A stretch of 64,000 nt of DNA, taken from positions 1,116,001 to 1,180,000 of the forward strand of contig NC_088790.1 in the NCBI RefSeq assembly GCF_949628265.1, given 5' to 3'. This document shows positions 16,682-62,699 of this stretch, piece after piece. A program made the position numbers and the translations under genes. Source of the DNA: Cloeon dipterum (lineage: Eukaryota; Arthropoda; Insecta; Ephemeroptera; Baetidae). How positions within the stretch are numbered: the first letter of the stretch is position 1; every line of letters starts with the position of its first letter. The notes below the pieces were generated by a model. That model made no database searches, was not told the DNA's origin, and worked only from the letters and a program-made list of their open reading frames with translations.

Positions 16682-16739
16682 GTTTTACCTGAAAATGTAT
16701 TTTTTATATTATGAGAAACACCCCATTCCAAAGAATCGA

Positions 16740-26700: not shown

Positions 26701-26943
26701 CAGCATCTGTCAGTTTGGAACAGTTCCCTTCCATCCGCTTTTTCTCCAAGTAAAGAGAACGCAGCCCGCCTAAAATATAATTTTTAACAGCATCCTCATC
26801 ATGCACCATAAACTGCTAAAAACTTACCGATATATGCATCCATGGTATCTATTACCATCTCTGAATTCTTCTTCAACCTTAAAAGACACAATCCTGATAA
26901 CTTCACCTGCACCATACTTCCAGAATGTGCCAAGAGGCTTCAT
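23792..26943 (-). CDS. DNMT1-type DNA (cytosine-5) methyltransferase, copy 1, intact frame
   Basis: Eleven exons: 26943-26828, 26769-26614, 26521-26172, 26109-25715, 25643-25530, 25305-25103, 25064-24938, 24879-24748, 24359-24226, 24164-23903 and 23851-23792. They total 2,049 bases (682 aa); all phases agree. Catalytic motifs in order: I (LDLFAGCGG, plus coordinates about 25858-25889), IV with the catalytic Cys (GGPPCQGFS, about 25570-25598), VI (MENV, about 25235), VIII (LRQRR across the exon 6/7 junction) and X (GNAVPP, about 23831-23848). WWKGAYGRLEW and ITLREIARAQSFPD match the DNMT1 target-recognition region. The N-terminal 210 residues are not a clear BAH or CXXC domain but are shared with copy 2. 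The last intron appears to use a GC donor. The enzyme should methylate cytosine in DNA using S-adenosylmethionine. It lies 1 kb from, and divergent to, the SF1 helicase. Confidence 0.85.
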
Positions 26944-27967: not shown

Positions 27968-30900
27968 ATGGAAAGGCATTGGGAAAGGGCAAAAGACTTC
28001 CCCAATTCACGCGCGTTCAACTGGTCAGATTGCCTCGGTTTTGCTGGAAATGACCTGGAGGAACGTAACAAGATTACAGACGCAGGCAAGCGATCGAGCG
28101 CCTACCTGGTTTCGACAGGGTAAGACACACAACAAACATAATAAATTAATTCCTTGCATTAATTGTATCTTTATCCTTTACACAGACAAGAGTCGGCAGC
28201 TTGAACACGGTTTGGAAGGGCACGTACAATGGCTTCATGCTTGGCCAGTAAGTACCATAATTTTATACTATGTACCGTTCTATTTGAAATGCTAGAATAA
28301 TTTTAATACACGGGATGTGACAAATTGATAGCACTCATAATCAATTCCTCACCAATTCCTTCCTAAAATGTCTGATTTTTATTTTATCATGAACATCCCG
28401 CAATTATTAAAAATGCTAGCATAATTTTAATCCACGGGATGTGACAGTTTTCCTTCATAAAATGTCAGATATTTATTTTATCATTAACATCCCCTTCCTT
28501 ACATCTGTGTTCAACATCTACTTAATATTCCAGACCTATGCCGGACTATCAGGAGTCGTACCCGACCGTCAAAGAGAGGATGCGCGAAAGGCAGCAACAG
28601 TATATTGACTGGAAACGTGCTCGACTCAACCCAAATGTAGACGTGCCATTATTGAAGATGCAAAGGCGAAGTCCTGAGTTGCCGAAGCTGGAATTCCATC
28701 ATCAGGCATGGCTTGAGCTGTCCGCAAAATCGGTGGCAAAAAAAGACCAGTAAGTCAACACGTAACCTCCTTATTTTTTCCTTTTTATTAATTAATGCTT
28801 CTGCTTTTCCCCTAGACTTGCTGCACTGGACTATCTCAGGTCCTCGCATCCCCAGGTCAATAGAGAGCTTGACGAGCACAACGCTCTACAGAGGTAAGAA
28901 TCAATGAAGTTTACATATTAAGCAATTCACTAAACAAATAATTATTTCCCTCTAGAGATGCCTTGCAGTGCCGCTCTTGGAGTATAAGTGGCTACAGACC
29001 GCACTCGACGCAGTGTCAGGCGAATGCACTCTTTTACGGGATGACGAAGACCTTTGGATTGCTCACCTCAACATCGACTTGGATGCAGCCGTCTACCAAT
29101 GCCTGCAGGAGGCAGTGGGAGTCTGGGCACACTTCACTTTGCCAGGACGTGGCAAAAATTCAGACAAATGTAGCAATTATTTCCATACCTCTACCATGAT
29201 ATTAATTCTTTTATTCCACACAGACAAACTGCTCGTCAAGGCCCTAAGCAGCACTAGTCCATCTTTGCAGGTGAAGATTGGCTTCAACAACGCCACCATT
29301 GACCAGTCGTGGCTCATCCGTATGACCCGGGGTGTCGAGCTGAAGTGCCTGATTCACCATCGCAACTATCGTCTACCAGATCCCTTATGCAGCCACATTA
29401 GACGCACTGACAGCCTTGCGTCACCTGTTCTTTCCAGGAAGGGGTCCACCAGAAGCACAACTGGGATCGCCGCTGGTAAATTTTTTACAATTTTTCTTGT
29501 ACCTAATTTGTTACTTAATTTCAAATTCCTAAATTCAGGTACCGCAAGAGGTTATTGACGGGTTGCGCAACGGACATAAACAGCTGATAGGAGGCCCACT
29601 CAATGATGAGCAGCTGGACGCCGTCTGCAACATCCTGACCCACAGCCGCCTGCACCACGTTTAAATTTGGTGGGACCGCCCGGAAAAGGGAAGACGAGGG
29701 TTCTCGACGAGTTGCTGCTCCAAATTTACAAACACCACATGGAGGACAACCCGGCAGATGCCCTGTAAGTATAGCACTCAATTAAACCAATTAATATTTA
29801 CTCATTCTTTAATGTTTGCAGCGTCCACCTGGTAGTAAATAGCAACAAGGGTATTGGCGCGACAGTCAGGAGACTCCTGCATAGAGACGTCGACCGGGCC
29901 GCCATCGTGAGACTGACTTCTGAGAGGGAACTGGCAAACTGCCCAGAAGAGACCACGGACCTGACCCTGCGAGCATCAAAGGTTCAGTACAAGAGGGAAC
30001 ACCAGATCATAATTGGCACACCAATCTCTATTGCGCGGATCAGCTTATCAGAAGGTGCCAACAACCGCCCGCCACTCATCACATTGATAAGTTATATTTA
30101 AAAATATTTAATTATAATTGAAAATCTTTCAATCTTTCACGGGATGTTACCACTGCTAATATATATCTGATAAAACTTGATTTACGATTTCCAAGCCAAC
30201 CAACTGTCACTCATCCACCCCGAATATTTCATATTGACAATTTAATAAAGCAGCTCTATTCTCCACAGCTCGACGAGGCAGGTTCCTTTTCCTTCCCTGA
30301 CATCGCAGGAGCCCTTACGATGAACGGCCAGGCAGTCGCAACAGTCGCAGCAGGAGATCCACTTCAACTCACCCCCAGAAGCATGAGTCCCGTCAACGCA
30401 GCCCTGGATGGTGGGAAAACCATCTCCCACCTGCTTCCCCATACTGGAGATTGGATTGGACCAAAGTAAGTGTTTAATAGTGGCATTCAAGTTCAACACT
30501 AATTTAATTTCTTTTTTCCAGCTACATCCCCCACCCAGGCTGCGGCACGTACCTGACGAGGAATTACCGTTCCCACTACAAGATCGTGGAAGCAATCTCC
30601 TCTATTTTCTACAATGGCAAAATGGTAAGTTTAATTAATTTATGATATTTTAATTTCCATCAATTAATTATTTCCAATTATTTTCAGACGGCAGCCCAGC
30701 CCACAACACCAAGTGACGATCGCTGCAAACTGCGCGAAGCATTACAGCCGTTCGGCCTGGGGGACACGGCCGAGGCCTTGTACTGGCTGGACTTCCACAG
30801 TCAAGCTGAGAGGGGTCTATATGACCCCTCTCTCAACAACCCTGGCGAAGCTCGTCTTGTTGCCAGCATTGCTTCGCAGGTCTCTTCACGGGTTGGTGCC

Positions 30901-31370
30901 AACAGAGTGTGCGTCTTGACACCATACAGACGTCAGGTAATTTATTAGAGCAATTAATGGTAATTTAACAGTCGAATTTAACACTTTCTATATGATTTCA
31001 GATAGAGGATATTGCCAAACTGGTGCCTCAAAAGATCCCCGTCCAGACAATTGACGACATCCTCGGACTAGACAGGGACATTGTTGTGATCTCCCTTGTG
31101 CGGGCTGAGAAAGGAGGGGTCTGCTCAAGGAAAGCTGAAGCTGTGGTGATCAAGAGGGAGTTGGCGCACGACGAGCATTTGCAGCCGGAAGCCCCATCCT
31201 TCCTCGGCTTTATGTCTCACCCCAACCGTGCCAATGTGATGCTAAGCCGAGGTAAAGAGGTTGTCCTGATTGTTGGTTCCAAGGAGCTCTACCTTCGATC
31301 GAACGCAGCCCACTGGCGCCAAATTGCGGACAGATGTGTGAGCCTGCAAGTGGCAAACTTTGAGTGTTGA
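27968..31370 (+). pseudogene. UPF1/MOV10-type SF1 helicase, copy 1, one frameshift
   Basis: About eleven exons. The start MERHWERAKDF lies 20 residues before an FNW motif that copies 2 and 3 also have. Helicase motifs: Walker A GPPGKGKT (29673-29696), II LDEAG (30269), III GDPLQLTP (about 30354), IV TRNYRSH (about 30553), V DDILGLDRDIVVISLVR (about 31050) and VI NRANVMLSRGKEVVLIVGS (about 31222). This order is that of SF1B Upf1-like RNA/DNA helicases. Just before Walker A the frame breaks: NDEQLDAVCNILTHSR runs into TAA at 29662 while the P-loop is in another frame, so an indel of one base (or two) occurred near 29645-29660. It may be a mutation or an assembly error. The Lys replacing the usual Thr in the P-loop is unusual. 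The last codon before the stop is Cys. Confidence 0.7.
28291..28493 (+). repeat. Tandem duplication inside helicase intron
   Basis: Two copies, period about 122, share TGCTAGAATAATTTTAAT or TGCTAGCATAATTTTAAT followed by CACGGGATGTGACA and ending ATTTTATCAT(G/T)AACATCCC. Each copy is bounded by GGGATGT and its complement, so each could form a stem. A related ACGGGATG word recurs at about 30138 and 31533. Confidence 0.6.
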
Positions 31371-32635
31371 TTGTGCTTTTTGTGATTAATTGTGTGCCAG
31401 CTTGCGAGTGCCACGTATTAGTAATATTTATATTCTTAACTGTGCCTCATTTACCATCTCAATTTTGGATCCGTTGTTACATGCTTAGCTTTATAATTAT
31501 ATTTTAATATTGTGACTTCTTGTGAAATTATACGGGATGACAGAAACATAAATCAATATAATAAATACACTGTTTCTTAAATGACTTCAATACATCAATA
31601 AATATGTGTTACATCTCAAATTATAACAATAATTTATGACTGAAATTTGTCTCTTTTACGGGTTGAATAAATTATTTTACATGTAAAAAAGAATTTGTTT
31701 CATCAAAGTATCCATATTCTAACCATTCCATAATTTGTTGGTTGTTTGTCAATAAAGATGATAATAATTATAATATAAAAGCAACACTTTATTGTAAACT
31801 ATTGCTAGCAACCCGCACAAAACATCGGTTACACGCTACAACACTAGGAGGCAATATAAAATTGGATCAAGGCGAATATTTAGGTGAAAATTAGGATTAA
31901 TCACGTACAATATGGCTTTGTGATTACAAAAAGTATAAATATTTATCAATTGCACGCTCACAACAGCCTAAACAACAGACTAACGCTATGATCCATATCA
32001 TTTTTTTGGAAAAAAATGCTGTTGATAACATCAAAATCTGCATGAGAGTTGCTCTAAGATCAAAATATATGACACTACACAAATCAATTGGGCAATAATG
32101 ACAAGGAAATTAAGTGATCGATGCCATTTGCCAATGTAACAATTGCATTCGATCAACACTTACATCAGCAGACAACTCTTATGTATTAATAAAAAAATTT
32201 ATTGCTGTACTTTTCCAATTACAAATCTCGCCTACCATTGCCATAACTGTTAATAGGACAGAGCACCTTATAAAAGAACAGATTTTCCCCCGCGCGCCAA
32301 AAACTTTTCAATTCACTAACCACACACCAGATGGCAGCACTATTCAGTCTAGAGCATTTTAATCTCGGTATGATACAACCTATCAACCACTATATTAACC
32401 GGTTTTTACCAGTAAAACTGGCTAAATATACCGGTAAAAACCGATACATTTGACCGGTTTTACCGGTTGTTATAGCCGGTTATACCGGTTATTTTGACCA
32501 GTTAATATCGGTTGCATGCATTAGGTCACGTGGTACCTCAATACTGCCAACTCAAAGTGCTGTTTTGAAACAATTTTTTTGGAACCCAAAAAGGGTCCCA
32601 TGGGGCCCCCTACTATTTTTAATGGGTTCCCCAAC
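31371..32635. other. AT-rich non-coding stretch
   Basis: No gene supported. It follows the helicase stop and holds several AATAAA-like signals. At 32397-32510 a cluster of CCGGTT/AACCGG words (TACCGGTTATACCGGTTATT type) forms a local palindromic array. Confidence 0.55.
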
Positions 32636-33043
32636 CTAAAATGTACCCCCACACCAAATTTGAACAATATTGGTTTTAAGTGCTTCGTGAGTCTCTTCGT
32701 GACTGTTTTTGAATCTATGAGGTTTCATGGTGTCAATTGGCACTGCCTTCATCTTATCACGAAGGGCAGCGTAGGTAGCTGGTCGCAGGTTGTCAAGGAG
32801 GGCCTGCTTAAGTTTCGTGTATGGAAGGGCAGCGGGAGAGTCAGCGAAATGCTGCGCAGCCAGTTCAGGAAGATCATCATGGATGAGAGCTGAGGAGAGG
32901 TGAAGGTAGCGTTCCTTCTCGTCAGAGATCTTGAACTGGTCAAACCTTCCCTCCAAAATGTTAAAAAAATTATCAGCATGGGCACTGGCGTAGATGGGTG
33001 CCTTGAAGGTTTGCTTCTCCTTCTTGTCGTCAGGGAGAATCAA
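32636..33043 (-). pseudogene. Gypsy-type gag fragment
   Basis: A 135-codon frame encoding a capsid-like gag segment. The core ADNFFNILEGRFDQFKISDEKERY, then LPELAAQHFADSP and YTKLKQALLDNL, is the typical gypsy retrotransposon gag pattern (a tryptophan-free variant of 'FWxxxVEAQFxxxxIxxDxxKxxxxxxxL'). It ends soon after the capsid-like part; no protease, RT or integrase follows leftward, so the element is 5'-end only. The LTR-like segment lies just upstream on the same strand. Confidence 0.7.
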
Positions 33044-33304: not shown

Positions 33305-33379
33305 GAAGAATTGTATGGCGGTTATGAGGGTTATAATTGGGCATTGGTTTTCATTAAACAAAATTCCTAAGTAGAATTA

Positions 33380-34330
33380 CCATGTACCTTCTTTGGGCGT
33401 CCTCGCCGTCCTCTATTCTTCATGTTAGGCAAATGTGCAACACTGGAACAACATTGATTTAACTTAATTTGTTTTAATATTCTGAAAAGAAATACCTGCT
33501 CATTTTGGTTTTTACGCGCTTCTTGGGCAACTGTTTGTCCTGGATTAAGACCTGAGCCGCAGCAACACTTTCTGGCATCACAGGGGCAGATACTTCCTTT
33601 CCTATACAAACATTTTTGTTCTTGGAGCCACGTCGTCAGCCTGGGCGTCATTTCTGTGGTTGTGTCAGCGTGGAAAGCTCTACCTGTGCTTGCGCATTGT
33701 TTGTTTCATGCACGGATCTTTAAGGTGGTATTAGCTTTGCGAATCTAGTCGGTTATAATAAATTACCCTGAACCAACAGAGATGTTGCTCTCTGCGGCGG
33801 ACTCGTCGCTGCTAATTTCAGTTTCTTCTTCCTCACTGTCGGACTGCGATTCCCTGTTAAAATTTTAATTTTACTTATTCATCCTACCATCAAGATCCCT
33901 CGTTTTACTTTTTCTTTTCCTTGCGCAGCGTCGGTTTATTCAGTCCTTTGACCTTGTTCTTGCTGCCAGGTTTGCGTCCCCGCCGGGGTTTATTTGGTTG
34001 TGTTTCCGCAGCAAGCTCGGCCTCTGCTGCTTCCTCATCCACGTCCTCCAAGAGAATGGCATCTTAGAGGTCCTCAATGCTGAAGCTGATGGAAAAAGGT
34101 GGAAGCTACTATTAATACGTTGAATTGGAAAAAAAACATGGAAGCTTATTTTTCACCGGTACATTGTAGGCGGCCGTATAATTTTTGTTAAGGGGATATA
34201 TACAAACTCATCTTCCGGGTCAGCATTGTCCGGGTGGGCAGTGGTTGTCCTGATCTCTGCTGCCTGTTCCAAGGTGGTGCTAGTCGCCTTGTGGCTTTCG
34301 CGCCGACCGCCGGAAGATAGGCGTGGAGGC
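33380..34330 (-). other. Exon fragments encoding AT-hooks and a Cys-rich motif
   Basis: Minus-strand open blocks separated by likely introns: about 34255-34200, 34085-33905 (with RRGRKPGSKNK), 33855-33785 (acidic, SDSEEEETEISSDES), 33650-33500 (CLYRKGSICPCDARKCCCG) and 33440-33385 (RGRRGRPKK). The mixture of AT-hooks, acidic patch and clustered Cys resembles the tail of a chromatin-associated or transposon protein. A TAG occurs inside the second block (about 34064), so it is probably decayed. It may be the tail of a second recombinase-type gene, since the 17 kb tail also ends in an AT-hook. Confidence 0.4.
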
Positions 34331-34339
34331 GAGCAATTA

Positions 34340-35729
34340 AATATCAGCCAATCGCAGAGCTGGGCCGCCCGGCGGTGAAAAGTGCAAGGAGCGTAGAGAA
34401 GCGAGCTGGGTTGCTGCTAAGGGGAGTACTTATTCCACCAATAGCAGGATGAAGTTCTTAGCTCCTTTGTGCACACTACTCTCGCCGGAGTGTTCAACTC
34501 TGATCAGCTGCAGCGATGACAACAAGCTTCCGCTGCGAATTATTCTCAGTGTAGGGCCCTTTTTGGGCCGGGTTTTCTCTCAGAAAAGGGTCTCGGCAAA
34601 AGTTAAGACATATGAAAACGCACTGTTTCGCTAATAAGCCGTCTGGCAAATTTATTTATCTCCGTCTGACAAGTGTAGAAATTGTGTTGATTCAGATTGT
34701 ATTTTTTGTTGATTATGTTCTGCAGCGTGTTGTGTGTATCGACGCCGCTGCCATATGATGCTTGCGGATCAGGGGCTTCTGGACGGCAGGTCTCCAACTC
34801 TAATGCTGGTTTCCTCTGGTCTTCTTAGGGCGTAGGCTGCGCCGTTTCCGGTCTACCCGAGCGCCTCAGGTAAGACTTGGCACAGTAGTTGTCCCTCCTC
34901 GACTGAAGTTGCGAATCCTCTCCCACAGCCGCGAGCTCCTGGTAGGCGCCTGCTGGCCTCCTGACCAAGATGGCCTGCTGCGAGGGGTTCGTAGTCTCCA
35001 GAGTTTCCTGGTCTGGACTTGGAGACAGCTTGGCCTGGCGATCAGGAAGTGTCCTATGCCAAGTCAAGGATTAGGTGAGTGTCCTCTTCCTTGGGGCAAG
35101 GTAGCTCTGAGGTTTATGATAGACAGCTCGCTTTCTGCCCCGAGTCGTGCGCTGCCTGCGCTTATATTAGGCTGCCCCTCCTTCGGTCGCTGCTGGGAGA
35201 ATGGAGGGTGGGTTCTCCCTCAGTGGCGGCCCTCCCCTACTCAGGGAAAGCCCTGAGTGAGGTGAGGGTGAGTGGGAGGGGGCGTGGTAAGCCAGGCCCC
35301 CTCCTTTTTCCTTTTTCCTTTTCCCATCCAGTCAGGAATGTTCTGACTAAATTTTAATTTGTGTTTTGAAGGTCTGAAGTTCTCTGCTGCTCCTGTCCTG
35401 CTCTCCGGTGACCACCGACGGCTGGTTCATGGATGACGTTTTTCTGGGCCGGAATTGTGACCTGCTGGTACCACCATCAGTGGTTACCTTGTACGAATAT
35501 TACCATCCTGGAATTTTTTATAGTGCTCTCCTGACCATCAGATTGAACCCAAGGCCCGTCGGAAGATCGTAGTAGTGGTCATGGACCGTGATGGAGTGGC
35601 CCATTAAAAGTCACAGGAGCTTCTTCGCAGGTCCACTAAGCTCCATCTTCTACTACCCCAATTCCCGGAGTGACTTCACCCTAAATATTTTTAGGCTCAA
35701 GTTGAACCTTTTTTGGTGCTCATGTAGAA
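34340..35729. other. Spacer, higher GC, no supported gene
   Basis: Several overlapping small ORFs (60-115 codons) in both strands without motifs or coding-like agreement. I see no repeat of note until the palindrome at 35730. Confidence 0.5.
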
Positions 35730-36083
35730 GATGCTATAAGTGACAGTCACTTACGGCATCACGCGAAAATACATAAACAAACGATTTCTAAAGTTGGCAG
35801 CACTTAGGCGTCGCCTGTTTTGGGGCGGTACTGGGCGGGGCTACTGTTTCGGTTCGCGACGCGTTCACCGGCTGGAACAACCGTTGCGCAATAATCGTAA
35901 CCGGTATTTTAAACGGAATCACAGAGTTGAAGGTGTGTGCTGCATCGCTGAAACAATTGAGCATCGGCATCCGCATCGGCATTTTATGCTTCTTCAACCA
36001 CGTGTTGTCAGCGTGTTTGCATCGCGAGCGGCTGTAGTTTTTTGTTATTTCGTGCGTTTTGAGTGCTCTTTGGTGTAATTGGT
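35730..36083 (+). repeat. 5' terminal segment of helicase/DNMT element family (copy 4)
   Basis: About 354 bases are an inverted copy of 48643-48300. It begins with an imperfect palindrome: GATGCTATAAGTGAC, one A, then GTCACTTACGGCATC. The first 31 bases are identical to the complement of 48613-48643. After about 36083 similarity ends, so only the promoter-side terminus survives, followed by unrelated sequence to the P element. Confidence 0.75.
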
Positions 36084-46364: not shown

Positions 46365-46372
46365 GATTATAC
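46365..46372. other. Target-site duplication, right
   Basis: GATTATAC, identical to 36360-36367. Confidence 0.9.
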
Positions 46373-46978: not shown

Positions 46979-47510
46979 GTGACAGTTTTCGTGGCCCAGA
47001 AGCGGCTGATTCGTGCCCTGGCGGGCGAGAGGTACTGGAAGGGGTTGACGCCGCTGTGTTCTGCGAGACCACTTTTTGAGCGGTACAACCTGCTTCCAGT
47101 GTTTTCAATTTATTTGTTCGAGGCATGTAAATTTGTTAAAAAGACCCCGCCTACTTTAAAAAGACCAGGTGAGTGCACGGGCATGGAACGCGCCGCGCGC
47201 CTGAATTGTATATTGCTCCTCAGAAATTGATGATTTCGCAGAAAAATCCATTTTCAAGTGCTGCAATTGTGTACAATGCTTTGCCGGTTTCGCTACGGCA
47301 TGAGCCGCGATACGATAAGTTTGTCATTGCTTTGAATGAATTTCTTCACTTGAAGAAATTTTACGATTCTGTTGAATTCTTGGAATTTGTTTAAAATTTA
47401 TGATTCTTGTGTGTAATTTGTGTGTGCATTGCAATTTGGGGGGCCTATATTTAGAATTGTAACAAAATCTGATGTATGACCTTGCCAAAAGACAATAAAG
47501 AATATAAAAA
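46979..47510 (+). pseudogene. LINE reverse transcriptase C-terminal fragment
   Basis: QKRLIRALAGERYWKG ... CRPLF-like 'SARPLFERYNLLPVFSIYLFEACKFV' corresponds to the same C-terminal region as the LINE at 42.5-43.0 kb. It then shifts frame to KNPFSSAAIVYNALPVSLR ... FLEFV ending at 47394, so at least one frameshift is present. AATAAAGAATATAAAAATAATAATT at about 47495 is the 3' tail. Only the last roughly 530 bases of the element remain. Confidence 0.75.
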
Positions 47511-47706
47511 TAATAATTAACCAAATTATGCTGCATGCCTCCAGACATCCTTCAATCAGCTACCAGGTCACGAAACTGAAAAGTACGACCCTTCGTCTAC
47601 GATCCTAAATTGGCAACAGCATAGATCGATCACCCCGGAAAACCCAATTTGCAATTCCTAGAAGATTCAGGTGGTCATCATACCTACATAACAACATACA
47701 TAGCTT

Positions 47707-48291
47707 TTAGAATCGAAATACGTTTCCTATGACCACTTTCGAGTAATACACTTGAGATTCGGCATCCTGAATGTGCGCCGGGATCGTGGTCAGGTCATGC
47801 ATCCTTACACTGCGGCTAGATACAAACAGATGCCTGCCCTCGTGGGTTGTCCGGACCCTGGTATCTAGCTCATGGTACTCATTCTGCCTCTCTCTGCACC
47901 TCCGGTTAAAATCTTGGTATCCGCGTTGGCTTTCCGGGAGCCACCTGAAACGATTTAGCATGCAAAATAGCCCACCAATCCACAAATACATTCGATCACC
48001 TTACATTCTCAAACCGGACCCCTCAACATCCCGATCTGCACAGCAGAAAAACACCCAGGGAGCACCTGCAAAAATTACAAAACCTATGTCACCCTTAAAT
48101 TACTAACATCCGGCAGCTAATACTATACTAACAGCATGCGAATATTCATGGACAAAACTTACCGGAGTGAAACCAGGCAGCCGCTCGTTCATGCATCGCC
48201 TCTTGTTCAACTCATTCCTCTCTCTCACGCCCGACACACGACCAAGGTCAAACCTCCAGTCAAGGGAACACCCTTCACGTCCGTTCTGCAT
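47707..48291 (-). pseudogene. Helicase N-terminal fragment, copy 3
   Basis: Three blocks match the first exons of the copy 2 helicase. 48291-48163 has SLDWRFDLGRVSG and NKRRCMNERLPGF, compared with FNWDLVVGGLPPG and NRRRCANEHLEGF in copy 2. About 48060-48005 has GCFSA. 47946-47770 has RERQNEYHELDTRVRTTHEG and LFVSSRSVRMHDL, compared with RERQWQYHILDRTERTTHEG and LFVSRRSVALYDV. A stop follows the middle block. Nothing of the helicase core follows leftward. The promoter-side terminus 48300-48643 is attached, so this is a 5' remnant oriented opposite to copy 2. Confidence 0.75.
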
Positions 48292-48299
48292 TCCGAATT

Positions 48300-48643
48300 A
48301 CACCAAAGATCACTCAAAACGCACGAAATAACAAAAAACTAAAGCCGCTCGCAATGCAAACACGCTGACAACACGTGGTTGAAGAAGCATAAAATGCCGA
48401 TGCGGATGCCGATGCTCAATTGTTTCAGTGATGCAGCACACACCTTCAACTCTGTGATTCCGTTTAAAATACCGGTTACGATTATTGCGCAACGGTTCCG
48501 GCCGGTGAACGCGTCGCGAACCGAAACAGTAGCCCCGCCCAGTACCGCCCAAAACAGGCGACGCCTAAGTGCTGCCAACTTAAGAAATCGTTTGTTTATG
48601 TATTTTTCGCGTGATGCCGTAAGTGACTGTCACTTATAGCATC
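48300..48643 (-). repeat. 5' terminal segment of copy 3 (inverted to 35730-36083)
   Basis: Ends at the imperfect palindrome shared with 35730-35760. It includes the GC-rich block with GGGCGGTACTGGGCGGGGC or its complement and lies immediately upstream of the copy 3 helicase start, so it probably holds the promoter. Confidence 0.75.
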
Positions 48644-48957
48644 TTTTCCGTCAGTTATGGCATCTTTGTTGGGATGCTATAAGTGACAAAATTTTAACAA
48701 CAGATGCCATAAGTGACAGAAATGATGCCATAAGTGACATTACTCAAATACTCTTAATATTTTGGTCAAGCATTAGTTCAAAATTTTATGAGTATTTCGC
48801 TAATCTCACTTATAGCCTCTTTTCCGTCACTTATAGCATCTGTTTACATATTTTTGTCACTTATAGCATCGTTTGTTTAGATGCTACAAGAAGCACAACA
48901 GATGCTACAAGTGACGAAAAAGATGCTACAAGTGACGAAAAAGATGCTATAAGTGAC
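48613..48957. repeat. Array of a 15-bp motif, GATGCTATAAGTGAC, both orientations
   Basis: Copies or one- to three-base variants at 48613, 48629(-), 48650(-), 48673, 48703, 48724, about 48806(-), 48826(-), 48856(-), about 48880, 48901, 48922 and 48943. Single copies mark other family termini at 35730, 35746(-), 58792 and 62491. Clustered subterminal motifs of this kind usually bind the element's own recombinase or a regulator. Spacing is irregular and the motif is too short and inverted too often for CRISPR. Confidence 0.85.
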
Positions 48958-50239
48958 ATACTCTTGTAGCATCGGTCAAAATATAAACACGAGTCGTGTT
49001 TAGCGCGCAATTTCGAACTTTGTTAGGTTGGCACGTCAGCGACGAGGGCGGAGCCAGTGTTTGGATACGCCGACCGTTCACCGGCCGCCAAAACCGGTAA
49101 AATCGTGATTTTCAGTCCGCTTTGTGAAGTGAGCAGCGGCCATATTGGATTTGTCGCATGTGCTCTCCGCGTGGCTTGTTAGCACAGACAGCATTTTTCG
49201 CATTTCAAACGAAAATTCCGAGAAAAGGTGCCATAATCGAGGACGAAATGGTTGAAATTCCTCCCACGTTCAACTGGGACCTTGTGGTGGGTGGACTCCC
49301 TCCAGGTCTAGAGAAAAGTGTGCGCAACCGGAGGAGGTGCGCCAATGAGCATCTTGAGGGCTTTGATAAGGTAAGTGTGCTTATATCAGTGCTAGTGTGT
49401 GTCAGCAGGTTAGGTTAATTATTTTTTTTAATTTAAGGATCAAAAAGGTTGCTTCTCAGCCAGGCATGTTGGTGTTATTCCGGTGACTTCCTTCAAATTG
49501 TAAGTTTATGGATGATGCAATCGCATGTATGGGGGACTCACACTTTCCGCTCACTCACACTTCTCGTTTTTTGATTGGAAGAATCAATGTAATGCCCTAT
49601 CCTAGCGAGAAGTGTGAGTGTTGGGCGAAAAGGGTGAGTCCCCCATATTATTATGTTCAGATCGGAGTTTTTGTTTATTCATAAGGGATTGTTACTAATT
49701 TGCGATTCTTTCAGTCCATTGTCTGAGCATCAAGAAGGCCATCTTGAGACAAACAGCCGCTTCCGAGAAAGGCAGTGGCAATACCACATTCTTGACCGGA
49801 CTGAGAGAACAACACATGAAGGGCGGCTCTTGTTCGTGAGTCGCCGAAGTGTGGCCTTGTATGATGTTCCGCCCATCCCCGATAGCTTCATGCAAGCGGA
49901 ATCTGACATCAGCACCACTTACGAGTAAGTATTTTAAAATATAATAAGTGTATGTAGCTCATAACATTGTCCCACAGCATGGAACGCCACATGACCCTGC
50001 TTGGCATGGAAAACTGGCTGCTGGACATGGACCGTAAGATGACAATGCCAAGGTGAGTAAAAACGATGTTGGTTTCTTAGCTCGGAATGTATGTATGTCT
50101 GTGTTTACCCTGGCCCTGCTAACACAAAGCTGTGTCTGAATTGAAGCGCCAAATTTTGCCCCAATTAATTCTTTTAAATTGACTCTTGCAGTTCACGAAC
50201 GGAAGTGAGGCGAGAATGGTTAGCTTCAAATCAACTTCT

Positions 50240-50575
50240 ATTGCTCATTGTGAGCCCCCTGTTGCCCCCAAATATTTTTAATCATTTGTTTTCCATGCTA
50301 ATAGTGCTATTTTATTGATCATTTGTGCACACTTTTAAATCTATTTATTTTTTCAAGGCGTTGCAAGCTTTTTAGCCGCCGACCGTGCCCTGTCATGCGA
50401 GCCGCCTGTGCTGAGGTACTTTGGCCGGAGTTTGGACGCTGCCTGTCCGGAGGTGGTGCCTTTGCAGTGTTGATGCAGTGCGCGCAGCAAGCGCGCACTC
50501 TGCTGTGTGTGCTGGAGCGCACCAGTACACTCAAATAGTGTGTGGCGCAGCACAGGCACAGCGCTGGCACTCATT
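50240..50575 (+). repeat. 300-base dispersed repeat, copy a
   Basis: From about CCCCCTGTTGCCCC to CAGCACAGGCACAGC. It is nearly identical to 50665-50990 and matches the complement of 57690-57950 and 57965-58255. Core words: CATGACAGGGCACGGTCGGC (complement here) and AAATAGTGCTATTTTATTGATCA-like. It lies in a helicase intron. Confidence 0.75.
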
Positions 50576-50664
50576 GGCACCCTCCGGCTGGCTGCCCCTG
50601 CTCCCGGACCTTGGCACAGAGGCGAGGCATCAATTTTCAGGTTCCAATTACCCTTCTAATCCGG

Positions 50665-50990
50665 ATTGTTGGCCCCCAGTTGCCCCAAAATAATTTTAAT
50701 CATTATTTTCCCAGCTAATAGTGCTATTTTATTGATCATTTGTGCACACTTTTAAATCTATTTATTTTTTCAAGGCGTTGTAAGCCATTTTGCCGCCGAC
50801 CGTGCCCTGTCATGCGAGCCGCCTGTGCTGAGGTACTTTGGCCGGAGTTTGGACGCAGTCTGTCCGGTGGTGGTGCCTTTGCAGTGTTGATGCAGTGCGC
50901 GCAGCAAGCGCGCACTCTGTCGTGTGTGCTGGAGCGCACCAGTACACTCAACTAGTGTGTGGCGCAGCACAGGCACAGCACAAGCACTCA
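50665..50990 (+). repeat. 300-base dispersed repeat, copy b
   Basis: Direct tandem partner of copy a, with the same GCGCAGCAAGCGCGCACTCTG block and short ORFs that are by-products of the repeat. Confidence 0.75.
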
Positions 50991-53737
50991 TTGGCACCTC
51001 AAATGACCATTCATTTCGGATTGATGACCCCCATTTGCCCCCAAATATTTTTTCCCATTTGTTTTCCCTGCCAAAAATGCTATTATATTGTTCACTTTTT
51101 CACATTGCTTATGCTTGTACTGTTTTATTCTGTGGTTTTGAATTAACTGTTCAATTAATTTGATGATTGCTTTTTAGAATTCTTGCCTGCATATACCTGG
51201 ACTTGGCAAAGAAAGTGACACTCCTGGAAGGTGCGTCTGGGACGGCCCTGATGTCCTGTACGAACCCTGGACATGGCGCGGACAGAGTCACGTGGACGGC
51301 TAGCCTGGACTACCCGCTCTCGCCAGAACGCAACTTGTGCTTAGAGTCGACCGTTCGGGAGTGGTGCATGGTCCGCCTGGTTAAAGGTCGTCGGAAATTA
51401 GGTAGTATAAGAGATAAGTTACTCCTTGACCTTTCTATTTTCTAATGTATTTCTTTTATCTGTACAGGCAAGCTTCTCGTCTCACGTCACGACAGTGGAA
51501 CAGTGACGCTCATGGAGGGAGACGGGTGCGAGCTGAAGCACCGAGAAATGCTGCTGGCAATGCGAGGGCAACCGGTAGAGCTGGAATTCCAAGCGACGTT
51601 GGTGGCTTTCAAGCTTCAAGCTGAAGGTTACCGGTACCATTGATGCCCTATCAGCTCTCAAGGACTATTTCATCGGCGGTGGCCTTCAAACTGCAGCACG
51701 TGGACTACCTCTTGTGAGTGGATACCAAAATTATTTTTAATTAATTTGAATTAATTCAAGGTTTCAGACGACCACCTCGAGAGGCTTGCCAAAGGGGAAG
51801 GTTATTACAACGGAATGCTGAATTATGACCAGAGAAGGATCGTCTACGAAATCCTCGAGCATGGCCGGCCACACACCATTTACTTGTTGGTGGGACCTCC
51901 TGGTACAGGAAAAACGGCCACCCTGGATGAGGTTGTGGTCCAGGTTGCCAGGCATCACCAAGAAGCGGACTCGATGCATTGTAGGTTGTAGGTTATACTG
52001 ACGGCTGAATAATCATTTATGCTTTCCAGGATCTTTTTTGTGGTATCCACAAACGTGGCAGTCCGATCAACAACTGAGAGGCTGGTGCGTGCTGGGCTGG
52101 ACGAGGACATGATCGTGCGTCTGCTCTCCGAGCAAGACTACTTAAGGAGAAATGATGCCCTAAACGGAATGTCCCAGCGTGCCACGAGGATGGTTTATCA
52201 CAGCACAACCAGTGTAGTTTTCGGCACACCAATCTCAGTGGCCAGGATTTCCATGTCGCTCGGGGAGAGGAATCGTCCGCCGCTCATGCTGCTGGTAAGG
52301 AAGAGTCACTTCTCAATCAGATTGTTTTTTAATTATATTTTTGACAGCTGGACGAAGCAGGATATATGCCGGCTAGTGACGCGTTCGCAGCCATGACCTG
52401 TAACGGTGAGGCTGTGCAGACTGTAGCAGCAGGAGACCGCTTGCAGCTCAGACCCCGGTCATCCAGCAAAATCGCTGAGCTGCTTGATGGTCAATATAGT
52501 TTCTTCGACATGCTGGCGGATAGTGACTACTTCCAGGATGACGGGTGAATTGCAATGCGAAAATTAATTACGTTAAATTATTGATTATTTTGTTTCAGTC
52601 TCGTGCCGAAGGTGGGATTGGGTGTTTCGCTGACCGTGAACTATCGGGCGCACCCAAGGTTGGTCAGAGGAGTGTCTGCACTTTTTTATCACGGATTGAT
52701 GGTAAGCATGGTTCAACGAAGATGTTTGGTTGCAATTACATTATTTTGTTTTCAGACTCCTGCTCGGGACTTGATCGTTGGAGACGAGACATTGCGTCTG
52801 CGGCACGAACTGAGAGAAGTAGGACTGGACGTTGATGCCAACCCTCTCTACTGGGTGGACCATACCAGCCGGATGGAGCGCGACTTCCTGACGTCGTCGC
52901 TGTACAATGTTGGAGAAGCTGAAGTGGTTGTCCGACTCTTCAAGTTCCTCACCTCAGTCATCCCGCACAGACTCATCACGGTCATATCACCGTACAGGAA
53001 GCAGGTATTTTGTGCAATAGACTTGCAAAAGGTAGGGTCTCTAAAAAACTGTTGTATTGTTCCAGGTGCTGCTGCTCAAGGAGATGCTGCCTCCCACCGT
53101 CCCTACGTACACAGTGGACGAGATTATCGGACAAGAACGTCCGGTAGTCATCGTCTCACTGGTATGTAGCGACCTAAGTGATTCCGGAGTGCAGTCACAC
53201 GGCCTTGGATTCTTGAGGGAGCCGAACCGTGTGAATGTGATGGTGTCTAGGGCGAAGGAGCTGGCCATTCTCGTTGGATCAAGAGCCCATTTCGCCAAGA
53301 GCAGAGTCGGCTTTTGGGAGACTTTGACGACCAGGGCAACTGGAATCCAACCTGATTTTTGAATTCGCGTTTGGACAGTCCATTCCGTGTTTGTTGTGAT
53401 TTTTTAATGTCGTTTTCACCTCTGACCATTTGATTTAATTTTTAATAAATTCACGATTTGTACTAGATTAAAACACGTGAAATATTTTTATTTGCTCTTG
53501 CTGTCTACCATTCAATTTTAGATCGGACGGGTTTGAACAACTAATTTTTATGCATATTTCATCAGAATTTTGAGTGAAGCAGGCATATGCAATTGACATT
53601 TCCCTCTAGATTGGCCAAATTGCTAAGAAAACTTGGACTATGTAAAGGAAACATGATCTTCTTGAATGTCATCCAGCTAATTCATTAATCAATTTTTTAA
53701 ACAAATTCAATCAATCGCCTTTTTGATACGTCCTCTT

Positions 53738-54890
53738 GTCACCTTTGGCTGCAAGTGCAAAATCTCGTGCGGGTTCTGTGCAGTACCTTACCAATCCGAT
53801 GCCAAACATGTGCAGATCTAGTGCCATTTGACTGCCAGATTTCACTGCGGGTCTTGTGCGGACGCGATAAAAATCGAGATTGGTGCGAGTAAAGTGCAAA
53901 TGCGATACAGAACAAGTGCAGAAACAATGCCAATGCAGTGCAAGAATCTGACAACGAGACCAGAATCAGGCAACCAGTAAGCATATGGAAAGACACTCGA
54001 TTTATTTTCTCCGGAGTGATAGCCTTGCACCGCATAAGCATTGATTCTGGCACTCAAATGGCACATGATCTGCACACGTTTGGCATCGAAATGGCACCAG
54101 TTCTGCACAGAACCATTGCAAAGTCATGTTCCTGCACTGCATAAGCCGTGATTCTGGCACTCATATGGCACAGCATGTGCACCCGTTTTGCATTGCACTG
54201 GCACCTGTTCTGCACAAAACATGCACAATGGCCATGGTGCCATGTTGCGGAAAATTGTCCATCGGCCACTTTTGCTTCGGGGGGTTTAGCCACGCTGCTT
54301 CTCACAGGGAAGCAGCGTTTTCACTCGGATCACGTGACTGAAGAGGCCCATGGACAGGGCGATTTTGAAGTGTAGACCACCAGAAAAATTTTCCACGGCA
54401 CGCGGCAATTTCCCTTGTGCAGGAATTGTGCAATACTGGTACCAATCCGATGCCAAACATGTGCAGATCAAGTGCCATTTGACTGCCAGATTTTTTTGCA
54501 GGTGATGTGCGGACGCGATTAAAATCGAGATTGATGCGAGTAAAGTGCAAATGCGATACAGAACAAGTGCAGAAACAATGCCAATGCAGTGCAAGAATCT
54601 GACAACGAGACCAGAATCAGGCAACCAGTAAGCATATGGAAAGACACTCGATTTATTTTCTCCGGAGTGACAGCCTTGCACCGCATAAGCATTGATTCTG
54701 GCACTCAAATGGCACATGATCTGCACACGTTTGGCATCGAAATGGCACCAGTTCTGCACAGAACCATTGCAAAGTCATGTTCCTGCACTGCATAAGCCGT
54801 GATTCTGGCACTCAAATGGCACAGCATGTGCACCAGTTTTGCATTGCACTGGCACCTGTTCTGCACAAATTACGCACAAAAACAATCATT
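53738..54890 (+). repeat. Direct duplication, period about 651
   Basis: Segments 53765-54232 and 54416-54883 are about 95% alike by eye, both containing CCAATCCGATGCCAAACATG and GCACCAGTTCTGCACAGAAC. Within each, TGCACA/TGGCAC/TGCAGT words recur every 15-25 bases. It separates helicase and methyltransferase genes of copy 2. Confidence 0.8.
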
Positions 54891-54923
54891 CGCGGTGCTC
54901 TGTTGATCGCTTTTATTTCTACC

Positions 54924-57444
54924 ATGAGGCCGATCGGTTCTTTTGCCCGATTTGGGAAAAAAATTCTGTAAGATAGTGAGCGCAGAAGAAGACCTGGCAT
55001 TCAAATGTCCAGATATATACCACGTCACTGTGCTGGAGTTAGTATTTTTTCATTAATCATTCCGATATATAAAACAGTGTGTCTCCTCACAGACGCATAC
55101 AAGAGACGCTAATCCAAAGCGGAGCGAGAAATGAGTTGGTGCAACTCAAAGGTTGCAACTACGTCCAAGGTACAGCACTCGGTGATTCAATTAATGTTTT
55201 TCCATCCGCGGAAGAGGCTTCTGAAGGTGACTCATTCTTCTGCAGACTCTTGTAAGTTTATTTCACTTCGAGATAGTTCCAGCTCATTCAAAGTAACATA
55301 CACTCTCATTCAGTTTTGATGGCTCCTCTTACACACCAACGATGGTATTCAACGAAGAGAAGAACTGGTGCCATTTCAAAATAACATCTAACAAACGAAG
55401 GCAGCTAGCACGCACAATAACTGATGCATTGAATGGCACCACTACTGTAAGATACATTTTTCTTTTCTTTTCGCGGCAACAATTTTCACGATCGTATATA
55501 TTGTCCTAGGTCCGGATTGGCTCGTCCGTAGTGATTGAGAAAGATACATGCTTGGCCACGACATTCAAATCGGAGCGTTTGCCCCATGTGCCAGGGCAAA
55601 AATAGCTCCGCATTGTCCGCGTCGACAAAATCAGTGTCCCCAAAGGCTCTAAATCAGAAACAGAAAAAGTGCTCGCTGCGTCAAAGATTCGATTTGCAGT
55701 CACCTGTTTCGTCAGAGCTGCTGAGACAAACAGTTGTTCAATGGAAACACCTACAAATCTGCTGCACTTGTCTTCTTACCGTGATATATCATTTACCAAA
55801 CCTTCCGCTTTTTAAAAAACATTTCATTTACAGAAACCGAGATTTCTGGTGCACTCTTTGTCTCAGTGGTAAACGTGTTATTTCTTCCTAACCTAGAAGT
55901 TAAGTACATTGATGACGTTGACCAATACGGAATGGCGACATACGTCTGCAATGGAATGCTCGACTTGCAAAACCAAAAAGTTGTAGGAGCTGAGAAGTGT
56001 AAGTCTTTTTTTGGTTCCTAGCAAGAACAATTTCAAATTTCTATATCCTATTAAGGGCCAACTGCTATCAAAGAAGGGTCAAAGACTGCCACAACGCGGC
56101 GATGTAGAAATGATCGTAGGTGGCCCTCCGTGTCAGGGATTTTCACACCTAAATCGATTCAAGACAAGCAGCAAAGCTGTGAAGAACGTAGTTACTTTAA
56201 TTGCTTTCAGATCGTGTTCTATTTTGAGTTTCGTGTTTTTTCAGAAATCCCAGGTTCCAGCATTTCTAGACATCGTTGCTTTCTACAAACCAGAATGCTT
56301 TTTAATGGAAAACGTCAAGTCATTCATTACGGAGGAAGGTGTAAAGCACTTCTTTGGGGCGCTGCAGACAACAAAAGAAATGGGGTACTATTTCCGATTC
56401 ATGGTCTTGCAGGCTGCCGATTTTGGCGCACCACAACAGCGGCCAAGGTTGTTATACACTCATTCCGTCTTACGCCCTCTAACAAAAGTGCTCTTCTACT
56501 AGGTTTTTCCTATTTGGCACGCTAGACATCGGACGGTTGGCTGGTAAACCCATTGCCACCCATTTCTCTGGGCTCACGATGACTAGTGTCAAAGCTGGCA
56601 ATCATACTCTGGTTGGGAGCTATACGACTCATGCTCCCCACCATAACCGAAAATAACACTTAATTCCTTTTTCAGTCATTCGAGGACAAACAGGAGGCGT
56701 ATTTTCAGAAGGTTTCTGTGTTCCACGCCATCGGGGATTTGCCAGATGTTGAGACACTTGAAAGCAGCAACAAGAGCTGCTACAATGCAATCACCTCTAC
56801 TTTCCAATCGAAGGTGATGAAACAAATTAACATTTTTCGTTCCGCATTGATTTCTTTGTTATCAGATGAGAGTCGGCAGTGAAAAATTGCGTATGCATAA
56901 ACTGCCCACGTCCATCAGTCCAGAGGACAAGAAGAGGATGACGATGATTCCCCAGGGTTCAGATTGGCGATGCCTACCTCGGTACGAGGATGAAGAGCGC
57001 TTCAAAGCGTGAGTGTTACCTTTTCCTAATCACTCTTTAAAATGTATATTATTCTACCTTTCCCCCCTTTCATTAGCGGAATGCCACTCGCTCCAAAGTC
57101 ATTGGTAAAATCAGCACACTCAAATGGTGATTGGCGCGGAGCATACGGAAGGCTGCAGTGGTCGGATCTATTCATGACAGTTTTAACAAGGCCATGCATT
57201 GCTTCTAAGACTGGAAAAATCATTCATCCTGTGTACCATCGAACGCTGAGCCTCCGAGAGTATGCCAGAGCCCAGACCTTTCCAGACAGATTTAAATTTA
57301 AAGGGACATTGACTCAAGTACAGAAGCAGGTTGGCTACCATCAAAATTACATTCCGTTAATCTTTACCAATGGTGTTCTTGCAGATTGGAAACGCAGTAC
57401 CTCCCCTGCTTGCAGAAGTAATCGGACGGTCACTCTTAATCTAA
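54924..57444 (+). pseudogene. DNMT1-type cytosine methyltransferase, copy 2, decayed
   Basis: The start MRPIGSFARFG matches the start of copy 1 (MKPLGTFWKYG). Blocks: 54924-55040, 55093-55252, 55315-55450, 55511-55700, about 56035-56190 (GQRLPQRGDVEMIVGGPPCQGFS, motif IV), 56245-56445 (MENV; APQQRPR), about 56500-56620, 56678-56816, 56866-57009, 57077-57328 (DWRGAYGRLQW; LREYARAQTFPD) and 57385-57444 (GNAVPPLLAE, motif X). Three defects: a run of seven A at 54957-54963 puts the first exon out of frame relative to copy 1; TAG at 55603 interrupts the shared N-terminal domain; and I find no motif I (DLFxGxGG) between 55600 and 56100. A DNMT without motif I could not bind AdoMet normally. The text around motif IV is closer to vertebrate-like DNMT1 than copy 1 is. 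Confidence 0.75.
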
Positions 57445-57689
57445 ATAAACTTGTGCTCCCTCAATTCAGATCAAAATGTAATATAGACAAAATTAATTCA
57501 ACTTCTCATAATTAGGTCTTTAGTTGTAACTATTAACACGTGTTCCATTCCGGTTTGATTAATAAAACAATTACCGTCAAATAAAGTGTGTTTATTCCTT
57601 GTCTATCACTCTATACATGAAAATAATGAAAGCAGTGCTCCCAGGCAGTCAGACACGCCTGCCAGCTGTTGCCTCCACTGTGGGCCCCA

Positions 57690-58255
57690 CGTTCGCCAGG
57701 TTCCCACACTGCAGAATGCACCACCTCCGGACAGACAGCGTCCAAATTCCGGCCAAAGATGCTCAGGACAGGCGGCTCGCATGACAGGGCACGGTCGGCG
57801 GCAAAATAGCTTGCTACGCCTTGAAAAAATTATGAGATTTAAAAGTGTGGACAAGTGATCAATAAAATAGCACAATTGGCGGGGAAAATAATGATTAAAA
57901 ATATTTTGGGGCAACTGGGGGCTCACAATCCGGAATGAATGGTCATTTGAGGCCGACAATTATTGCCTCGCCTCCGTGCCAAGGTCCGGGCTTCAGCAAA
58001 CACAGCAGAGTGCGCGCTTGCTGCGCGCACTGCTTCAACACTGCACAAGCACCACCTCCGGACAGACAGCGTCCAAACTCCGGACACAGCTGCTCAGCAC
58101 AGGCGGCTCGCATGACAGGGCACGGTCGGCGGCAAAATAGCTTGCAACGCCTTGAAAAGAATATGAGATTTACAAGTGTGCACAAGTGAACAATAAAATA
58201 CCACTTTTGGCGGGGTAAAATTGCGAATAAATAATTGTGGCACAATTAGCCGAGA
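57690..58255 (-). repeat. 300-base dispersed repeat, copies c and d (inverted)
   Basis: Two tandem copies, about 57690-57950 and 57965-58255, in the opposite orientation to copies a and b. Both include CACCTCCGGACAGACAGCGT and GGCTCGCATGACAGGGCACG. They follow the methyltransferase 3' end (AATAAA at about 57564). Confidence 0.75.
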
Positions 58256-58440
58256 CACTCCGGAGTGGAAGAGTGATTTTCACCTGACTATGCTCGCCTC
58301 ATCTCCGTGTCCGACAGGAAGGCGGATCTGCCAGCCGGGGGTGCTTATTATTGCTGCCACGCGTGGCTGCGTCCACTGTGGGCCATTGAGAGTTGCATGA
58401 CGTCCAGGTCGAAACATTAACTCCCGCAGACACATAAACA

Positions 58441-58806
58441 AACAATGGCGGCCGCGAGGCGAAAACTTAGCACAATGATGTTATTAGAGCGCATGCGCCC
58501 ATCCTTCTTATTTTTCTACTGCGCTGCACTAACTATAACACTGGTGCTGCCACTTACTACAAACTAACACCAAAAAACTGGTTCTTTTTTGCCAATTACA
58601 ACCCATCGGCAGTGAAATCACCCATCACCTTCGTGGTACCAACCTCTAAATTTGACCAACTTCGACCCTTAATTTCACCCCCCTTCAACCCCCGCATAAA
58701 ATTCCTAACTATTTTTATACGCACCACTCACCCCGGAATGGCCCCACACGAAGTTTGAAGCGAATTGGTCGAGGTGAAAAATAATCAAAACGATGCTATA
58801 AGTGAC
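58441..58806 (+). repeat. 3' terminal segment of helicase/DNMT element, copy 2
   Basis: Similar to 62108-62505: ACAATGGCGGC, GGCGCATGCGCCC-type block, CCCATCACCTT, GTACCAACCTCT/GTGCCAACCTCT, C-rich run, GAAGCGA, and terminal GATGC(T/C)ATAAGTGAC. Confidence 0.75.
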
Positions 58807-59139
58807 GCTGGCGGATTCATACAGTAATTTTATTTTATAATAACACAATACTATGTAACAACCATCCTAATTGGCGCGCCTCGAAGTCAAAACGCGAGTC
58901 TCGAGACTCAAACGCACGCCTCGAGGTTTGAAAGTGCGTGAGCGCCGCATCGTTGCTGAACCACTTTTTGTTTTGTAACACCGCACATTGAGTCCTTTAA
59001 CTAGTCAAGGAAATATTTAATGATTGTAGCAAAAATGTTTCTTGCTAAGCTGTTACATCTACAAGGTTATAAAATCTTTAAATTAGGCTACTGTATCGCC
59101 GAAAAACAGCTTTAAATAATCAGATACATTTTTTCATGT

Positions 59140-61365: not shown

Positions 61366-62107
61366 GCATCAATAAATTGCGAAATTATGGCTTACCAAGC
61401 ATGGATAATCTTGAAATGAAAGAGTGATGCATATATGTGAGAACAAAAATATATTTTTTTCTGTACAAAAATGGATACGCTCGCACTCCGATTTTAATTT
61501 TTTCCACTCTAATTGTTTGGATCGGTATCTTCTTTGGAGTTTCTAGAGCTCATAGCAGCATTCTCTCGCATTAATCGAACAATCGGACAGCAGGCAAGAG
61601 GTTCGTGTTGATATGCATTCACAGCCAGCTGTTGTCAGCTACTTGGTGATGGTAAAAACATACTGAGATACGCCAGGCTGAGGCTTGAGCTGGCTGCTCG
61701 TCGGCCCCTTCAGACTGCCTGCTGTACATTACGTTCCACACTGACGCTTCTCACATGACTGAAAACAAAATAAATGAGTCCCTGGACGCTAAATTAAAAT
61801 TGTTGCGCAATCAGGTGCTGTGGCAGGACCGCCTGGTGCTGCCCAGAATGCACAAATTCATTGCCAAGCCCTGCTCTGGTGTGAAAAACGCTTCGTACTC
61901 ACCCTCGCTTCTGCCACACTGCGTACGCGCCCACCTCGGTCGCATCCTACGCTCAAAGTGCCAAGTGCGCGGTGATGGGCGGCGAGCTGGGCGCCCAGGG
62001 CAACCCTTAGGCCTTGCTGCAGGCCCCTACAGGCAACGCTGGGCGCCCACGGGGACTTAATACTAAGCCCGCGACATTTTTAATACAATTCAGAGCATAC
62101 ACTCAAA
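61366..62107. other. Spacer with no supported gene
   Basis: A 101-codon frame at 61755-62060 has no motif and ends in GC-rich sequence. It may be the internal part of the element whose 3' end is at 62505. Confidence 0.4.
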
Positions 62108-62505
62108 CAACAATGGCGGCGACTTTTAGAAATAAAAGCACTCACAGCACAATCCCAAATGATGTCAAGGCGCATGCGCCCGATGGTCTATATCCACTAC
62201 CGCGCTGCGCTCACAACACCACCTTCCTGTAACACACGCCAAAAACCGGATTTTTTAGCAGCATCCCCACCCATTTACAACCGTCCAGCTTGGATGACGC
62301 CCATCACCTTGATAGTGCCAACCTCTGAAATACGTCAACTTTGACCATTTTTTTCACCCCCTACCCCAACCCCAAAAAATCCAAAAAAAAAATTTTCAAC
62401 ACCCCCCCAACTGCATTGACGCCTACAGCAAGTATGAAGCGATTTCATTACTATCATTTTTGTAAACAATGCAATAAAAATATTCAGAAGGATGCCATAA
62501 GTGAC
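62108..62505 (+). repeat. 3' terminal segment of a further family member (copy 5)
   Basis: Homologous to 58441-58806 and ends with GATGCCATAAGTGAC at 62491-62505. The matching 5' end is not in the expected place, so it is probably a truncated or solo terminus. Confidence 0.7.
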
Positions 62506-62699
62506 GCTATTCTGTTTATAAAGTAATGTTTGGAAAAATTTAGACAGCAAAAATAATAACATTACATAAAACTATGTATTTCATGTATGTAGACAACGTT
62601 CATTTGTACTAAATTGAAGTAAACACAATGAACTAATGCTAAAAAATATCAAAAATCTTTTATAGATACATACCAGGAATTTCTAGGGGTCACAAGCCC

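Follow-up and report, generated by a model that had tools for sequence, protein, structure and literature searches.

A probable giant tyrosine-recombinase transposon carrying helicase and DNA methyltransferase genes in the mayfly Cloeon dipterum

What joins a helicase gene to a DNA methyltransferase gene twice within 64,000 nucleotides of the genome of the mayfly Cloeon dipterum (order Ephemeroptera), and what enzyme would move such a pair? The stretch in question, here called the window, is C5:1116001-1180000 of the 190 Mb, ten-contig genome; coordinates given with no contig are positions in the window. A preliminary description of this DNA saw the second occurrence of the pair as a 10.2 kb unit at 48629..58806 with 15 bp inverted termini and, as no transposase was visible, supposed that an unrecognised enzyme moves it or that it is mobilised in trans. 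The analysis reported here makes it probable that this unit has lost internal sequence and is a non-autonomous member of a superfamily of giant animal DNA transposons, ~25-28 kb long, of the tyrosine recombinase (YR) type. These elements are best read as Crypton- or Starship-like in mechanism while fitting neither family.

Ends, full-length relatives and insertion sites

The 15-mer GTCACTTATAGCATC is indeed present at 48629-48643 (+) and 58792-58806 (-). The window contains 19 matches to it at up to three mismatches versus 1.47 expected, and 48 exact matches occur genome-wide versus none for the reversed control. Alignment of copies extends similarity beyond the 15-mer on both sides, which rules it out as a terminus; it is subterminal, with several copies at the left end and one at the right, and the same alignment replaces the earlier 10.2 kb boundaries by 48791-58824. 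On the left the element continues for 14 bp past its array, and on the right for 18 bp past the 15-mer. The 48629-48738 array is part of the end of a neighbouring, B-like element (family B, below); this end reads leftward and stops at 48753, 38 bp from the window unit. The features of the unit are as follows.

48791..58824 (+): family A element, internally deleted copy, ~10.0 kb, AG at both edges, delimited against the full copy C2:35676659-35703051 and an unoccupied paralogous site
48805..48957 (no strand): left subterminal 15-mer array with copies in both orientations, from 15-mer matches and copy alignment
51467..53359 (+): UPF1-like SF1 helicase core (Pfam AAA_11/AAA_12; tblastn with the family B helicase), with N-terminal exons placed by eye from ~49.2 kb
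53754..53758 (no strand): internal deletion junction, ~11.9 kb missing including the recombinase and further genes, 3-bp microhomology TGC
54924..57441 (+): DNMT1-type C5 methyltransferase gene, motif I exon (query residues 277-358) missing at 55985
58792..58806 (-): right subterminal 15-mer, single, 18 bp inside the right edge

Both genes read rightward, as had been described, and the span enclosed by the two named 15-mers has Pfam helicase and C5-methyltransferase domains on its + strand. Two losses set the window copy apart from the 26.4 kb full A copy, one of 11.9 kb at 53756 and one of 0.29 kb at 55985; a further ~4 kb of difference falls in tandem-repeat stretches. Because the 0.29 kb loss removes the motif I exon, the window methyltransferase is probably inactive. 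The window copy itself would be movable at best in trans, and the supposition of an unrecognised enzyme or mobilisation in trans suits this copy, as the recombinase gene deleted here is encoded by intact relatives. The element genes have introns, which is why the list of open reading frames (ORFs) of the window looks broken.

The full-length relatives belong to two sister families, A and B.

C2:35676659-35703051: family A full copy, 26.4 kb
C1:5707847-5735407: family B copy
C1:37774348-37802702: family B copy, only the end stretches read as DNA, the interior known from protein matches
C2:34345695-34372880: family B copy
C5:31809788-31836191: family B copy
C3:6661534-6686226: family B copy

The five B copies, 24.7-28.4 kb long, lie on four chromosomes in unrelated flanks. 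All five contain an intact 641-amino-acid YR frame, 100% identical among them, and family B has therefore moved recently. Among the matches listed for the four B copies compared by DNA, the C5 and C3 copies agree at every base of two core blocks, 3139 and 1976 bases long. A ~337-bp tandem repeat, arranged in inverted arrays that flank the family B gene core and vary between copies (L005, L007, L008), accounts for at least part of the differences in length.

The ends are discrete. In the four B copies aligned at both ends, the left end reads AGTATTTG... and the right end ...TATAGAG; family A ends follow the same pattern, with AGTATTTCGC... at the left and ...CATACAG at the right. The B right-edge pattern, at up to one mismatch, occurs seven times in the genome, namely in the five B copies, in the relic at 62.5 kb of the window and at C2:36.40 Mb. 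The preliminary description had allowed that copies of the termini elsewhere might never flank helicase or methyltransferase genes; they flank both in 5/5 B copies and in the full A copy.

Two unoccupied sites document insertion directly. At C2:36681401-36681900 (L024), a paralogous site, both flanks of the window unit are present without the insert. The C5 B copy lies within an 81-bp satellite array; when its flanks are joined, the resulting 242 bp match monomers without the insert on either side at 94-100%. At both sites insertion occurred without loss. For the other five joined flanks, no match across the full join was found in a database of element flank sequences, which did not include the flanks of copy C1b itself; the C1a join gave only a 69% AT-rich match across, and for the full A copy just the right flank was found again, at 91.5%. 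AG is the only sequence common to both edges of 7/7 insertions and both empty sites, and longer element-target identity is found at single sites (ATAGAG at the C5 copy, AGTATTT at C1b). To judge from sequence, this edge pattern fits recombination at a short shared sequence.

The pair of genes upstream in the window had been taken as the first copy of one module. Relatives of both genes are present there, but they belong to a truncated element of a different family, C, which is ~30-60% identical per matched protein segment, so that the two modules are not copies of one 10.2 kb unit; only the downstream one is a deleted A copy.

14416..32722 (-): family C element, truncated at 14416, left end at 32722
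14474..16678 (+): family C recombinase relative with two in-frame TAA codons
23798..26077 (-): family C methyltransferase
29643..31346 (+): family C helicase

The left edge at 32722 is common to seven copies at nearly the same base. Three C copies continue past the point at which the window copy stops, the one on C4 reaching at least 25.4 kb; in the stretches of the C4 copy that were read, no 15-mer was found at up to three mismatches except one with two. Recombinase matches are without stops in two C copies, have one in a third and two in-frame in the window copy. The gene order is helicase, methyltransferase, recombinase in family C and helicase, recombinase, methyltransferase in families A and B.

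Genome-wide, at least 46 YR matches were grouped into 25 loci. A match of 469 residues or more is present at 11 of them, namely five B loci, one A locus, four C loci and C2:37.10 Mb, a B-like locus with one stop and an interrupted frame. At 10 of these 11 loci both genes lie within 14 kb (methyltransferase within 10.0 kb, helicase within 13.4 kb), and at 4/14 loci with shorter fragments both lie within 16 kb; at a random genome position, both are found within 20 kb with a probability of 0.0025. With the unrelated flanks of the B copies, this bears out the earlier view that the genes belong to a mobile unit and are not chance neighbours. As a separate observation, 36/46 of the listed YR matches, mostly fragments, fall in C2:36.17-37.10 Mb and C5:1.05-1.15 Mb, the latter including the window; these two relic-dense regions are possibly heterochromatin or piRNA source loci.

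Candidate recombinase and accompanying genes

The region deleted from the window copy holds a frame that is ~75% identical between families A and B and is the longest conserved A-B alignment. In family B this ORF encodes 641 amino acids, with two zinc-finger-like motifs, identified by eye, ahead of the YR domain; in the Cloeon annotation the frame is joined to N-terminal exons in an uncharacterized 1359-amino-acid protein. The other Cloeon proteins found here are likewise annotated as uncharacterized, apart from one annotated as an ordinary DNA methyltransferase.

The assignment of this protein (P0001) depends on predicted structure and conserved residues. A first AlphaFold model, built from six sequences, had a mean predicted local distance difference test score (pLDDT) of 57, with 74-93 at residues 381-450 and 491-550. 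In Foldseek its top match was XerH (probability 1.00, E 1.8e-3), no match falling below 1e-3, and the rows below were mostly unrelated proteins with lambda integrase and integron integrase among them. In a second look by VIA, 48/50 rows were titled recombinase, integrase or topoisomerase; the other two are the phage repressors SroF and YopR, which we take to be recombinase-like. For a second model, restricted to the domain (mean pLDDT 73.9), VIA rows 1-17 comprised XerH, XerA, phage integrases, Cre, XerD and topoisomerases, together with MrpR at row 15, presumably also recombinase-like. Residues invariant among P0001, P0003 and P0004 are R433/R434, K479, R553, H579 and Y588, and H579 and Y588 are nine residues apart, a spacing that also occurs in Cre, XerD and lambda Int. 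Predicted fold and conserved residues support a YR as the putative mover; the low pLDDT near the catalytic residues and the Foldseek list of the domain-only model (below) speak against it. Outside Cloeon, two protein searches with ~8000 candidates scored in each yielded one metagenome protein at 41% identity and one at 23%.

Full-length A and B elements code for the YR protein, for a helicase of UPF1-like type and a methyltransferase of DNMT1 type, and for one or more additional conserved genes. The family B methyltransferase has 703 amino acids in 13 exons with GT-AG introns, and matches Pfam DNA_methylase (5.6e-58) and, as best PDB match, DNMT1 (1.9e-69). The family B helicase core of 524 amino acids matches SMUBP-2 and UPF1; one helicase intron, L006:1844-1901, was assigned a non-AG acceptor. 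Conserved A-B coding segments at L006:8000-9300 and L007:1-2100 sit between recombinase and methyltransferase; neither gave a Pfam match, the latter being scanned in two of three frames.

Nonsynonymous and synonymous divergence (dN and dS) between families A and B was 0.183 and 2.03 for the YR (546 codons; dN/dS ~0.09), 0.183 and 1.13 for the methyltransferase (698 codons, 13/13 exons), and 0.344 and 2.33 for the helicase (481 codons, in frames not exon-trimmed that may include intron pieces). With an overall dN/dS of ~0.1-0.2, all three genes look to have been under purifying selection.

In trees of 115 of 116 sequences, and of the same set plus two loci, the element methyltransferase falls inside the DNMT1 clade as sister to two other mayfly DNMT1-like loci. 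Because support for this sister relation is only 0.67, capture of the gene from the host is unproven. The two additional DNMT1-like loci, C1:5541501-5547000 and C2:6902501-6907000, are each other's closest relatives (support 0.999) and are possibly the host's own genes.

For a YR element, the following course of transposition is proposed. The YR would bring the two ends together and excise the element as a circle; recombination of the circle with a target, over a short stretch common to both that always includes AG, would then insert it with no further duplication or loss. The subterminal 15-mer array would likely be a binding site of the recombinase or an accessory protein, bound by the zinc-finger or the YR part. 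The methyltransferase and helicase, kept by selection, would probably have the DNA or RNA of the element itself as substrate, and might serve in self-marking, or in evading or tuning host silencing.

Competing explanations and known systems

Several results weigh against a YR-driven element. P0001 is not called a recombinase by any Pfam or PHROG profile and has no PDB match by sequence. In the first model pLDDT is 46-65 at residues 451-490 and ~30-50 at 551-600, which hold R553, H579 and Y588; in the second it is 45-54 in the blocks with K479, H579 and Y588, and Foldseek with this domain-only model gave no recombinase among the best 50 rows, which were unrelated helical proteins with E above 0.6. 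The histidine of the usual HxxR motif is replaced, the motif reading RxxR in families A, B and C and in P0003 and TxxR in P0004. A search for an integrated circle junction gave 0 matches. No methyltransferase lies within 190 kb of the C2:37.10 Mb locus, where the helicase is 9.6 kb away. Finally, another enzyme could also have produced the fixed AG at both edges, as a 2-bp target duplication that sequence does not distinguish from recombination.

This last point is central to the idea that an unrecognised DDE-type transposase, encoded by another conserved gene, moves the element and that the YR-like protein is an accessory. Subterminal repeats in both orientations with short inverted repeats resemble CACTA-type elements, the conserved segments with no Pfam match (L006:8000-9300 and L007:1-2100) could encode such an enzyme, and the Pfam scans did not extend to one + frame of L007 or, in the full A copy, to L003:1-4459. 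However, no transposase domain was detected in a six-frame Pfam scan of L002:2500-10000 or in the L006 and L007 frames scanned, and it is the YR frame that forms the longest A-B alignment and evolves with the low dN/dS given above; we regard a DDE-type mover as improbable. That the units are segmental duplications of a host cluster of helicase, methyltransferase and zinc-finger protein genes, with no mobile element involved, might be suggested by the other DNMT1-like genes in the genome and by the many relics in the two dense regions of C2 and C5, but five copies on four chromosomes, with identical end points and unrelated flanks, speak against it, and two empty sites without loss already contradict it; we find it very hard to credit. 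Just as hard to credit are endogenous genomes of a large DNA virus with a recombinase-type integrase: crustacean endogenous nimaviruses are linked with integrases in the available part of one account (PMC10871703), these integrases being presumably YRs, but the element genes contain introns, no capsid, polymerase or packaging domain was detected in the frames scanned, and no recombinase relative was found in viral contigs (31 pattern matches checked).

A YR-driven DNA transposon, which we prefer to these alternatives, was compared with known systems. In the available part of the Crypton account (PMC3212892), animal Cryptons encode only a YR, and no terminal repeats were found. The mayfly elements resemble them as DNA transposons with a YR as candidate mover, a proposed circle and non-autonomous deletion derivatives (PMC3212892), but differ in their size of ~25-28 kb, their introns and several conserved genes, including the helicase, the methyltransferase and at least one more, and, in families A and B, in the inverted 15-mers near both ends. 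With respect to the Crypton R-H-R-Y tetrad, the predicted fold and the invariant R, K, R, H579 and Y588 agree, yet the HxxR histidine is R or T. Comparison with profiles, rather than with Crypton sequences, gave no Pfam match to a Crypton-derived domain or DUF3504 at E<=1.

Starships, in the part of the source available (PMC11623301), are likewise large, have a YR as candidate mover together with other genes, and leave decayed relics. Of four Starship features compared, three are missing. The giant size with cargo is present at 24.7-28.4 kb with methyltransferase and helicase, at the small end since Starships are typically ~100 kb; by contrast, the captain domain DUF3435 gives no Pfam match for P0001 at E<=1, the YR lies 9-11 kb inside and is not the first gene (C1:5717111-5719033, element start 5707847), and the host is the insect Cloeon dipterum, not a fungus (Pezizomycotina).

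Methyltransferases are carried by dinoflagellate and charophyte retrotransposons according to the available part of another report (PMC5890265). These too are mobile elements with a C5 methyltransferase, whereas the mayfly element is a DNA element of an animal host and combines a DNMT1-type enzyme with a UPF1-like helicase. No reverse transcriptase domain, as a DIRS/YR retrotransposon would have, was detected in the element frames scanned, which are part of the frames of the full copy. Polintons/Mavericks are likewise large DNA elements. They carry an rve integrase and virus-type genes; no rve integrase, protein-primed DNA polymerase or capsid gene was detected in the same set of element frames. 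The available part of a giant-transposon review mentions tyrosine recombinases only in its section on bacteria and never names Crypton (PMC6431247). In the open-access literature, preprints excluded, we found no paper on a mayfly tyrosine recombinase and no description in animals of a mobile combination of recombinase, methyltransferase and helicase.

Neighbouring elements and significance

Family termini had also been reported at 35.7, 48.3-48.6 and 62.5 kb. These are element-related, as supposed, but are B-like end pieces and not ends of the window unit.

33333..35648 (-): B-like fragments, 81-85% identical to family B in DNA, that include the C-terminal end of the recombinase gene (tblastn); interrupted at 34278-35480
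35728..36080 (+): B-like left end, inner fragment, 97% identical to inverted 48296-48645
47510..48753 (-): B-like left end reading leftward, with its own 15-mer array at 48629-48738, 84% identical to B left ends
61913..62523 (+): B-like right end, 15-mer variant at 62491-62505, 84% identical to B right ends, right-end pattern at C5:1178499-1178523

Other elements share the window. In the region 1601-7395, intron-less genes are packed closely on the + strand; they include an rve integrase (1e-10), with weak AAA (0.0046) and CE-protease-like (0.0039) matches, and the region looks like a Polinton/Maverick relic. A nested element at 36367-46365 has inverted arms, 97-99% identical and including short tandem repeats, and its ORFs (TNP-like RNase H, GTP-binding insertion, weak THAP domain) point to a P-element-like transposon; within this insertion lies an RVT_1 fragment at 42960-43676 (-; 2.8e-11). 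Rfam gave no match in the window.

Giant gene-carrying elements driven by a recombinase are known from fungi, and a recently active animal family, if true, would extend the same movement of tens of kilobases to insects. With five near-identical B copies in the genome, transposition could be tested directly by resequencing. Selection on the DNMT1-type methyltransferase and the UPF1-like helicase of a transposon would make it a testable case of a parasite equipped with parts of the silencing machinery. On the broadest view, which we hold to be slightly better than an even bet, mayflies carry an unrecognised superfamily of giant YR transposons, a counterpart of Starships, whose own DNMT1-type and UPF1-like genes are under purifying selection and may serve in writing or escaping epigenetic silencing.

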